A program made the translations under genes and the position numbers. From the NCBI RefSeq assembly GCF_000425045.1, contig NZ_AULA01000008.1, forward strand, positions 1 through 64,000: a stretch of DNA of 64,000 nucleotides. The letters are read 5' to 3'. Within the stretch, counting starts at the first letter, position 1. Every line of letters starts with the position of its first letter. The notes under the pieces are model-generated. The model was not told where the DNA came from. It did not search any database and was given only the letters and a program-made list of their open reading frames with translations. Below are positions 10,484-23,277 of the stretch, piece after piece. This stretch comes from Acidaminococcus intestini DSM 21505 (GTDB lineage: Bacteria > Bacillota > Negativicutes > Acidaminococcales > Acidaminococcaceae).

Positions 10484-10495
10484 GAAGATAAGGAA

Positions 10496-10526
10496 AACTG
10501 CGGTGCCAAAGGCGCCGCAGTTTTTT
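10496..10526 (+). terminator. Terminator of the pyr operon
   Basis: A 12-bp GC-rich stem (AACTGCGGTGCC with GGCGCCGCAGTT) has a 3-nt loop and a following T6 run, 12 bp after the pyrE stop. Confidence 0.92.
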
Positions 10527-10578
10527 GTTTGGGAAAGATGCTGTGGTGCTGTGATATTGTGATGCTAAAAGACCGCAC

Positions 10579-10624
10579 GGCACGGCGCCAAACCGTCTCC
10601 CTATCGGTCGTGGGCGCCGAATTG
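10579..10624 (-). repeat. GGCGCC-flanked repeat module, inverted copy
   Basis: On the minus strand the module reads GGCGCC, a central block with ACGACCGA and AGGGAGACG, then GGCGCC, with arms 29 bp apart. The plus-strand module at 23124-23158 has the same arms, the same spacing and nearly the same centre. It stands alone here, without the rest of the large element. Confidence 0.7.
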
Positions 10625-10743
10625 ATTTTTTGGTCACACGGTCCGTGAACCGAATTGCGTTGGCAGCGTCTTGTGATTAGCGGTTTTGGCCCATCGAAAG
10701 CGGAACGGCATTCGCCGTCTCCAAGGCAAAAGACCGTAACGTG

Positions 10744-10796
10744 AGCCCTGAACCGAACGTAGACACGAATTACACGAATTCGGTTCAGGGCTTTTT
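10744..10796 (+). terminator. Orphan intrinsic terminator
   Basis: A perfect 14-bp inverted repeat (10744-10757 with 10779-10792) around a 21-nt loop is followed by T5. No gene ends nearby and pyrE already has its own terminator, so this hairpin may end a short non-coding transcript or be a decayed repeat. Confidence 0.6.
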
Positions 10797-10888
10797 GAGC
10801 GTGGGAGGTACTGTATGCTCTTGGTAAATGAGCTGTTGTTTGCGTATTTCTCAATCGGGCCTAGCTCAAAATTCAATCTGTGGGATTA

Positions 10889-11212
10889 TTGCTATGATGA
10901 TATTCAGCAGCGCATTCCTTATTCTCACCACTGCCCGTCTTGGTATTTTGCCTCTAAACTCGATTTCTCTGAAATCGATCCGCCCCGCCAGGGCGGGGGA
11001 CCGAAAGCCGCATGTTGCCTCATTGAAATGAGGCAAGCGTGCCCTTTCGGTGGTGGATGAGGAGCGTAGCGACGTTTCCTTACGAACGGCAGTGAGGTAG
11101 ATTCGCCCGGAGTTTCGAAGGACGATTTTGAAGCGGAGCGAAAGTCCGAGAAACATGTCCCTGGGCGAATCAAGTTCGGACCCGTTCCCCCGCAGGGGGC
11201 GGTTTGGGTCCG
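10889..11212 (+). repeat. Structured non-coding repeat, copy 1
   Basis: Begins with TTGCTATGATGATA (an extended -10-like box, TATGAT 10893-10898). Then come a hairpin (10960-10967 with 10971-10978), CCGCCC/GGGCGG (10980-10996), CCGAAAG/CTTTCGG (11001-11007 with 11044-11050) enclosing a perfect 9-bp hairpin (11015-11036), a domain closed by ATTCGCCC/GGGCGAAT (11101-11108 with 11163-11170), and a last stem CGGACCC/GGGTCCG (11177-11183 with 11206-11212). Copy 2 at 22619-23159 shares blocks of 13 to 16 nt and keeps the helices by paired changes. No protein-like frame fits. I do not recognise it as a named RNA family. Confidence 0.75.
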
Positions 11213-11379
11213 GCGTTACAGTTGCCTTCCACTTTTTTAGCCAGCTGCCACCGGTAGCCTTAGCCAAGGAAAGCCCCGTCACATATGCCTTCCGCCTTAG
11301 CCTACCTTTATGCCTCCCATCATGTTCCTTTTCCCCCATAATTATGATAAAATTAAGTGTTATGCAAGGAGGAATCCCT

Positions 11380-12822
11380 ATGCTCACAAAACCACTCCTC
11401 GAGGCTATGAAGGCTTATCGGGAAGATCATGTATACCCCCTTCATACACCGGGCCATAAGGGCGGACGCGGTGCTGATGAGGATCTCAAGGACCTATTGG
11501 GTGAAAATGCCCTTTTATCTGACGTATCACTTATGGAGGAACTGGACGATATCCACCATCCTGAAGGAGCCATCAAGGACGCTGAAACGCTGGCAGCGAC
11601 GCTTTATGGGGCAGACCGCTGCTTTTTTGGTGTCAATGGCACGACGGGCGTCATCCATGGCATGCTCCTTGGCGCGCTGCGTCCTGGGGACAAGATCCTG
11701 GTTCCCAGAAACAGCCATAAGTCTGTTTTGGGCGGTCTCATTCTTGGCGGCTTAGAACCGATTTCCCTGGCTCCTTGTTATGATGAGTCGTGGCGCATGA
11801 CGCTTCAGATTACACCGGAGCAGGTGGATGCGGCTCTTAACAAGAAGCCTGATATCAAGGCCGTCTTTCTTACGACCCCAAATTATTTTGGCCTTGCTGC
11901 CGATACGGAAAAAATTGCCAGGATCTGTCATGAAAAAGGGGTACTGCTCCTTGTTGATGAAGCCCACGGTCCCCATCTTGGATTTTCGTCCCTGCTTCCC
12001 AAAAGCGCCATGCAGTGCGGCGCTGATGCAGCAGCGCAAAGTACCCATAAGATTGTGGGTGCCATGACGCAGTGCTCACTTCTTCAGGTTTCCTATGACC
12101 GCATCGATAAGGACGCTATGGAACGGGCCATGAGCCTTGTGACGACAACAAGCCCGAACTATCTTCTTATGGGATCCCTTGATGCGGCGCGTTTTCAGCT
12201 TGCCCAAAAAGGCACAGCCATGGCGAAAGCCTCCCTTCGCGCGGCTGCGCTTCTCCGCGAAGAACTTAAAAAGATTGACGGTCTTCCGGTCCTTACAGAT
12301 GAACTGATCGGAAAGGGCGGCGTTGCGGCCATGGATCCGGGGAAGGTCACGATTATGACCAGCGCCCTGGGGCTTACGGGACCGGAAGCGGCGGAAATTC
12401 TGCGCCGCGAAAAAATTGCCGTTGAGCTTGTCGATGAAGATCACGTGCTCTTTCTTGTTACCTATGCTGATGACCATGCAGAATTTGCCCAAAAGGCCGT
12501 TCTTATCCGGGAAACGCTGGAAAAAAGCCGGAAACCGGTACGGAACGTAGCGCCAGCGGCTGTTCTCTCAAAGATTCCGGAACGGCGACTCCTGCCGCGG
12601 GACGCGTTTTTTGCGCCCCATGAGAGGGTGCCTTTTGACGAATCTGCAGGCCGTGTGACCACTGAATCCATCAGCTTTTATCCCCCTGGGATCCCTCTCA
12701 TCATGCCGGGAGAAGTCATTACGGAAGAGCTTATTGCCTACGCCCGTCTTATGCAGGAAAAGAAGCTTCTTGTCAGCGGGCCCCAGGATCCCTCCCTTAG
12801 AGAAATCGAGGTCATAAAATGA
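11380..12822 (+). CDS. Orn/Lys/Arg decarboxylase family protein (YaaO-like)
   Basis: PLP-dependent basic amino acid decarboxylase of fold type I. The 480-residue size and its position directly before tmk match Bacillus subtilis yaaO. The PLP Lys is in STHKIVGAMTQ, the cofactor Asp in LLVDEAHGPHLG, and HTPGHKGG is near the N-terminus; the C-terminal Orn/Lys/Arg domain is present. The ATG at 11380 follows CAAGGAGG. Substrate (lysine, arginine or ornithine) cannot be fixed from sequence. The product would be a polyamine or its precursor. The stop overlaps tmk by 4 bp. Confidence 0.9.
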   Translation: MLTKPLLEAMKAYREDHVYPLHTPGHKGGRGADEDLKDLLGENALLSDVSLMEELDDIHHPEGAIKDAETLAATLYGADRCFFGVNGTTGVIHGMLLGALRPGDKILVPRNSHKSVLGGLILGGLEPISLAPCYDESWRMTLQITPEQVDAALNKKPDIKAVFLTTPNYFGLAADTEKIARICHEKGVLLLVDEAHGPHLGFSSLLPKSAMQCGADAAAQSTHKIVGAMTQCSLLQVSYDRIDKDAMERAMSLVTTTSPNYLLMGSLDAARFQLAQKGTAMAKASLRAAALLREELKKIDGLPVLTDELIGKGGVAAMDPGKVTIMTSALGLTGPEAAEILRREKIAVELVDEDHVLFLVTYADDHAEFAQKAVLIRETLEKSRKPVRNVAPAAVLSKIPERRLLPRDAFFAPHERVPFDESAGRVTTESISFYPPGIPLIMPGEVITEELIAYARLMQEKKLLVSGPQDPSLREIEVIK

Positions 12823-22509: not shown

Positions 22510-22550
22510 AAAGCCAGAGTGCATGGATGAATCCATGCACTCTGGCTTTT
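22510..22550 (+). terminator. Terminator of the rnmV-rsmA operon
   Basis: A near-perfect 18-19-bp stem (22510-22528 with 22531-22549) with a 2-nt loop and a TTTT end. The long stem could also act as an RNase III site. Confidence 0.9.
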
Positions 22551-22618
22551 GCTGTGATGCTGCAGCGCTATGATGCTGCTGCCAAAGGCGGCAGGTAGAT
22601 AAACCAGCTATAAAAGTG

Positions 22619-23159
22619 TTGCTATGATGATACCCGACAACGGTTACTTTATATTCGGTACGACCTGCTATCGTGTTACGCGTTAGAACTTGATTTCTCC
22701 GAAATCAATCCGCCTTTGCCAAGGGGGGACAAAAGCCGCATGTTGCCACATTAAAAAGAGGAAACATGGTCTTTCGGTGGTGGATGAAGACGCGAAGCAG
22801 ACGTTTCCTTACGAGCCGCTTATAGGTTGTACCTTAAGATCCGTGATATGAGATAGTGGGGCTCTCGGCGAACCCATTAGCCTGTTGGTAACCAATCCAC
22901 GTATAACAGAAAAGGCAAAAGCCGGAGACTGTGAAACCCTAGCTCTTGCCATATGCTGCCAGGTATTACCTTTGGGTCAAGTATGAGGGAAAAGATTTTT
23001 GGAAACCGTCTTGAAAAAGGTCAGTTCATAACAGCGGCTTGCGAGGCGGATTTGCCCGGGTTCTGAGGCTGCTATGGAACGGAGCGAAAAGCAGAAGAAC
23101 ATGTTTGAGGGCGAATGTAATTTGGCGCCCACGACCGACAGGGAGACGATTAGGCGCCG
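22619..23159 (+). repeat. Structured non-coding repeat, copy 2, with inserted 212-nt domain
   Basis: Starts with the same TTGCTATGATGATA box as copy 1; TATGAT (22623) lies exactly 67 bp before the first hairpin in both copies. The first hairpin is 22690-22697/22701-22708. Shared identical blocks are GCCGCATGTTGCC (22735), TTTCGGTGGTGGATGA (22772) and GACGTTTCCTTACGA (22800). A domain of 212 nt (22821-23032), absent from copy 1, sits on a GCCGCT/AGCGGC stem. The ATTTGCCC/GGGCGAAT domain (23050-23116) and the GGCGCC/GGCGCC stem (23124-23158) follow. Helices GTTCT/AGAAC and CTGCT/AGCAG replace GTTTC/GAAAC and GGAC/GTCC of copy 1. Confidence 0.75.
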
Positions 23160-23277
23160 CTCGTTATCATCTTTCCCTTCAACGCACTATAAGCATCAAA
23201 GCATCAAAGCTCCATAGCATTCCTATATGTCTTTCCAACCTAAAAGACAAAAAGTTTGACTTTTTTAGTAAAACCCC

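Follow-up and report, generated by a model that had tools for sequence, protein, structure and literature searches.

Covarying hairpins in Acidaminococcus intestini likely belong to a species-specific family of mosaic palindromic intergenic repeats

Two regions in a 64,000-nucleotide stretch of the Acidaminococcus intestini genome (the window) share a series of hairpins whose arms differ in sequence and remain complementary. Do these helices mark a structured RNA, or are they the modules of a DNA repeat? The preliminary description placed an element at 10889-11212, with a second copy further along the window, and explained it either by selection on the RNA fold or as a modular repeat with maintained hairpins. 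The modular repeat is the part that stood, since the copies are dispersed, mosaic and intergenic, occur in both orientations, exchange hairpins as blocks and are confined to one species. The element likely represents a species-specific family of long mosaic palindromic intergenic repeats of the REP/BIME/BOX kind. It is probably not a dedicated RNA gene, and the best reading is that the repeat acts at the DNA level and is transcribed only incidentally.

The two copies align as had been described, with E = 3.6e-26 in a search of the genome, far beyond chance similarity. The paired helix changes are all found in the sequence: TCGATTTC/GAAATCGA (10960-10978) corresponds to TTGATTTC/GAAATCAA in copy 2, GTTTC/GAAAC (11112/11150) to GTTCT/AGAAC, GGAC/GTCC (11120/11144) to CTGCT/AGCAG, and CGGACCC/GGGTCCG (11177/11206) to GGCGCC/GGCGCC. 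The loop-like segment CGGAGCGAAA is identical in both. The spacing to the first hairpin is also equal, and nhmmer aligns 22604-22829 to copy 1. Both copies were said to open with TTGCTATGATGATA, which is indeed found at 10889 and 22619. Beyond the two window copies, this 14-mer is found only in a near-identical copy at locus L023, so it is not a general feature of the element.

The extent of copy 1 required correction. Rather than 10889-11212, it is a composite of ~650 bp (Table 1), in which a 3' half on the minus strand (10566-10700) is joined head to head to a copy on the plus strand (10697-11230). The same composite occurs at locus L010. Alignment indicates that the flanks of the two loci are unrelated and that the composite boundaries are sharp at both, and the right part is 75% identical between them (left part, Table 1). 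The sub-family 2 HMM matches the minus-strand half with E 2.9e-18, and the half-unit that follows corresponds, as its reverse complement, to the H1/H2 region in other copies. Units arranged as inverted pairs or mosaics were found in the window composite, at L010 and at L009. A 173-aa minus-strand ORF across the element was considered as a protein remnant and rejected, with no Pfam match.

Table 1. Features of the two window copies and of related insertion sites. Positions are those of the window; L-numbers are loci fetched from genomes.
Feature	Position	Strand	Basis or remark
Composite palindromic repeat, copy 1	10566..11230	.	Alignment with L010 1726-2368
3' half of sub-family 2 copy, opposite orientation, ends GGTTTGGCGCCG..GCGGTCTTTT	10566..10700	-	90% identical to L010 over 135 bp
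5' palindrome half-unit GCGGAACGGCATTCGCCGTC..AAGGCAAAAGACCGTAACG	10697..10741	+	Short matches (hmm 9-46) at many loci, both strands
Terminator-like hairpin GAGCCCTGAACCGAA/TTCGGTTCAGGGCTTTTTGAG, module common to many copies	10743..10799	+	Alignment, fold
Variable spacer including TTGCTATGATGATA (10889-10902)	10800..10957	+	Alignment
H1, TCGATTTC/GAAATCGA	10960..10978	+	Alignment, fold
H2, CCGCCCCGCCAGGGCGGGG, and H3, ACCGAAAG/CTTTCGGT, with inner stem	10980..11051	+	Alignment, fold
Most conserved segment, GGTGGTGGATGAGG	11049..11062	+	Supplies the most frequent repeated 11-mers in the intergenic DNA fetched
Mini-hairpins H4 (GGAGCGTAGCGAC) and H5 (CCTTAC/GTGAGG)	11061..11097	+	
Arm with helices A (11100-11108/11163-11171), B (11112-11116/11150-11154) and C (11120-11123/11144-11147)	11100..11171	+	Pair counts, 22 copies
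Terminal hairpin T, CGGACCC/GGGTCCG	11177..11212	+	Alignment, fold
Copy 2, between ksgA-like gene and groES	22604..23165	+	5' part to ~22814, 3' part from ~23043
Insert in H5 tip of copy 2, putative IS110/IS1111-type non-coding end remnant	22815..23042	+	nhmmer
IS110/IS1111-type elements at palindromes of congener G005	L184, L188, L192, L196, L198, L200, L202, L204		

The ends of the composite are inverted. CGGCGCCAAACCG lies on the left and CGGTTTGGGTCCG on the right, and the latter reverse-complemented is CGGACCCAAACCG, which gives 13-bp terminal inverted repeats identical at 11 of 13 positions (read from the L010 alignment). Among the copies extending to the 3' end, about half run on into YACGGTCTTTT (counted by eye), a terminal segment common to copies and the complement of AAAAGACCGTAACG at the 5' module. 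Inverted ends, this common terminus, dispersed duplicates and the related ~220-bp elements of genome G326, which have outer inverted repeats GCTGTGAAAAA/TTTTTCACAGC, would all suit a MITE, a narrower form of the preferred explanation in which the repeat derives from one IS and, being non-autonomous, is moved via its inverted ends by the transposase of that IS. We treat this form as a tentative option: most copies are fragments whose ends differ, no target-site duplication was recognised at the two loci (copy 1 and L010), and no autonomous partner or other cognate transposase was found among the Y1 and Transposase_20 families searched in the genome. Transposase_20 (PF02371) has no match there. 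The sole Y1 match is a truncated, stop-interrupted IS200-like remnant (G000:C6:46046-46315, L039) with no element adjoining, and mobilisation in the manner of RAYT and REP was rejected on this ground.

The plus-strand copy has, from 10960 onward, H1, H2, H3, the nearly invariant GGTGGTGGATGAGG, H4, H5, the arm A-B-C and the terminal hairpin T. H2 and H3 together form the skeleton hp1-GGGGACC-hp2-GGT. H4 frequently contains GCGNAGC, a sequence known to form a DNA mini-hairpin of unusual stability. H1, H3 and the arm are traded between copies as blocks; in place of the H1 of copy 1, other copies have CGACTCGTAGAGTCG or CGATGCGCAGCATCG, and sub-family 2 possesses a different, longer arm (ATTTTTCGATGG...GACCGTGTTATCGAAAAAT). 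Such whole-hairpin swaps (H1, H3, the sub-family 2 arm) are consistent with a purely mutational artefact, in which template-switch repair keeps long palindromes complementary and recombination copies them, with no selection and no transposition. Stem mismatches without strand bias point in the same direction. This account leaves unexplained the 650-bp composite between unrelated genes as well as the conserved unpaired GGTGGTGGATGAGG, and we consider it doubtful.

Further copies, which the preliminary description proposed to look for, are plentiful. They were located by genome search and by reading the stretches around the matches. The 324-bp query (10889-11212) finds 43 matches at E<=1e-3 in the 2.28-Mb genome from which it comes, corresponding to several dozen copies, many of which are fragments. 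A 10689-11230 profile run on the loci fetched around these matches gave 58 alignments, 39 of them with >25 bits and >100 positions. All fetched copies are intergenic, lying between genes predicted by a simple gene caller. The element has the high copy number and the intergenic palindromic units of a repeat family.

The family appears to be restricted to this species. Eight other genomes of the genus contain no match at E<=1e-3, and the ksgA-groES gap of five congeners (L070-L074), which is short, contains CIRCE and lacks the repeat. Sequence searches of plasmid and phage collections returned nothing similar. The core motif GGTGGTGGATGAGNNRCNNNRYGNCGTNTC has a single match in ~85,000 species genomes, a scan that possibly did not include the records of the element's own genome; this match, in an Acidobacteria genome, sits in what reads like coding sequence and was dismissed as chance. 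A variant, GAAGGTGG..CGGATGAGG, gave several matches in one genome of the same class and otherwise singletons across the phylum, and a wider spread was dropped on this result. Rfam matched nothing in the window at the gathering threshold and, at relaxed thresholds, gave only insignificant matches near copy 1 and no match near copy 2, and known RNA families were rejected on this result. Published descriptions of such repeats in the group were not found in the open-access literature, and we know of no palindromic repeat family like this one described in the class. The element was rightly called undescribed: the family is new in the resources searched (Rfam, phage, plasmid, species genomes, open-access papers), and its kind is already known.

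The genes around the copies show a preference in arrangement. Nineteen copies lie in tandem gaps, 13 in convergent and two in divergent ones. The difference between convergent and divergent gaps (p = 0.01) is only indicative because the loci were picked for carrying the element. A depletion between divergent genes is also a feature of REP repeats, which favour tandem and convergent gaps (PMC3733652). The orientation of the element relative to its neighbours is not fixed; in tandem gaps, 12 copies point in the same direction as the genes and seven in the opposite direction.

Pairing in the helices is maintained. Across 22 copies aligned without reference to structure, standard pairs fill 89.2% of pair cells, compared with 85.3 +/- 0.6 in shuffles that ignore relatedness (0/500) and 21-49% in slid controls. 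Changes on both sides of a pair occur in 28 cells against 10.3 +/- 2.9 in the same kind of shuffles (0/500). The covariation expected of extra copies is in this respect above chance, but under a phylogeny-aware null on a tree, which is crude and underpowered, no individual pair fell below E 0.05 (best 0.5). Much of the helix change is inherited in sub-family blocks. The statistics fit selection, palindrome correction or block exchange alike.

A structured non-coding RNA family, kept in many copies by selection on the RNA fold, would account for the excess of both-sided changes over shuffles and slid controls. It would also fit the conservation of unpaired segments and the more stable predicted fold of the plus strand (-120 kcal/mol vs -105 for the other strand). 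However, both strands fold far better than shuffles. The 258-nt 3' half beats 200/200 dinucleotide shuffles with z -4.75 as RNA and z -5.17 as DNA, and its opposite strand reaches z -4.49. Stem-internal mismatches in 39 copies lack a wobble bias (G-T 42 vs A-C 36), a weak test given that the tRNA control showed only 13 vs 7, and the asymmetry was set aside as a test of RNA selection. A scan of 10484-11382 found no sigma-70-type promoter; a promoter at TTGCTATGATGATA was rejected on this result and because the motif is not conserved in other copies. Together with the outcome of the tree-based null, the variable orientation, the absence of an Rfam family and of matches in the eight congeners, and the fragmentary state of many copies, these observations speak against the ncRNA gene that the preliminary description had in part suggested, and we regard the RNA family as improbable.

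Copy 2 was also found to differ in extent, as it contains a foreign insert of ~228 bp (Table 1). This insert has just two occurrences in the genome. The other (L019 2951-3196) sits in the same hairpin, the H5 tip, of a divergent sub-family 2 copy, a pattern of site-specific insertion into a repeated target. The insert encodes no transposase (including DEDD) and matches the Butyrivibrio plasmid pCY186 with nhmmer E 2.4e-12, in a region ~230-360 nt downstream of an IS110-family transposase gene. In IS1111-type elements, the side downstream of the transposase gene is a non-coding region that yields the guiding seekRNA (PMC11187229). Because the match falls on this side, we read the insert as a putative remnant of an IS1111-like element, derived from its non-coding end. 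The H5 tip appears to have served as the insertion site of an IS110/IS1111-type element of which only this remnant survives. Elsewhere in the window, a long near-perfect hairpin, AAAGCCAGAGTGCATGGATG/CATCCATGCACTCTGGCTTTT (22511-22552), lies just past a small cysteine-rich ORF and looks like a strong terminator.

REP/BIME repeats (GTAG and CGTC super-families; PMC3733652) provide the closest parallel in many respects. Like the present element, they are high-copy, intergenic and palindromic, frequently form inverted pairs, favour tandem and convergent gaps, and are landing sites of IS110/IS1111-type elements. The differences are considerable: a REP has 20-40 bp and one hairpin, whereas the element has 170-650 bp and approximately seven hairpins, and the terminal GTAG or CGTC tag of REPs was not recognised at its ends (by eye). 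The REP GTAG super-family has a RAYT (Y1) transposase, whereas the element has no associated RAYT (only the decayed IS200-like match). In length and tag, the element falls outside the strict REP definition. BOX, RUP and SPRITE of Streptococcus pneumoniae are likewise modular and structured, proliferated in one species, are nearly absent from relatives, are probably parasitic and can affect co-transcribed genes (PMC3049150). This likeness is by description only, and the modules of the element are the hairpins H1-H5, A-C and T plus an inverted duplication. IS1111/IS110 elements with their seekRNA or bridge RNA (PMC11187229, PMC11208160) are relevant to the copy 2 insert, which matches their non-coding region and sits in the tip of a hairpin; REPs, attC and other folded sites are known IS1111 targets. 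The insert differs from them in being without a transposase gene, and the repeat that hosts it is not itself an IS.

We propose that the repeat is non-autonomous and spread inside this lineage. The palindromic form of its hairpins would be preserved by the machinery that copies them or recognises them as DNA, possibly a transposase that acted in trans and has since been lost or escaped detection, and template switching that corrects imperfect palindromes could contribute to the same effect. The repeat may serve no dedicated function in the host. In copies downstream of genes, the transcripts would fold and may serve as terminators or 3' end protectors. Several findings weigh against this explanation. 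Neither a cognate transposase nor a clear target-site duplication was found in the searches described above, the length of 170-650 bp is far above that of REPs, and the A-B-C arm, with changes on both sides of its helices, exceeds most REPs in complexity and might point to a role as RNA. It is also conceivable, as a long shot, that the element is a mobile unit whose conserved multi-helix fold (A-B-C, H4/H5, T), as single-stranded DNA or RNA, is the substrate of some transposition machinery. If so, covarying structure rather than sequence would define a transposon family.

The preferred reading, a DNA repeat family, adds a large mosaic palindromic family to the class. Helix covariation between repeats can mimic an RNA gene while marking a DNA repeat family, and such repeats are a trap for ncRNA discovery by comparative folding.

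Related palindromes occur in other genomes. Congener G005 carries palindromes of its own upstream of groES, and their skeleton is GGGGGACC-hairpin-GGTGGATGA. A skeleton pattern search gave 12 matches in G005, 12 in G326, three in G369 and two in G478. These four belong to a 120-genome class sample whose remaining 116 genomes had no match, and the reversed controls together gave a single one. The sample includes the window's own genome, whose second hairpin exceeds the length allowed by the pattern. In all four genomes the order hp1-GGGGACC-hp2-GGTGGATGA is the same as H2-H3-GGTGGTGGATGA here, but the repeats are shorter, have other loops and are without the A-B-C arm. We infer common descent of the element and these repeats, for which we know of no name.

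IS110/IS1111-type elements accompany the palindromes of the relatives as well. In G005, the elements of two such groups abut the 3' arm base of its palindromes in eight of eight cases (by eye; Table 1), and G003 has several of these elements beside a repeat of its own (by eye). Insertion of IS110/IS1111-type elements into REPs is known (PMC1525189, PMC11187229). These observations suggest that different species of one genus have palindromic repeats of their own, accompanied by IS110/IS1111-type elements that insert within or next to these repeats, and the genus offers a natural series to study how guide-RNA transposons track their targets. The ~220-bp elements of G326 (L107-L116) contain two inverted skeleton units between their outer inverted repeats and are MITE-like in appearance.
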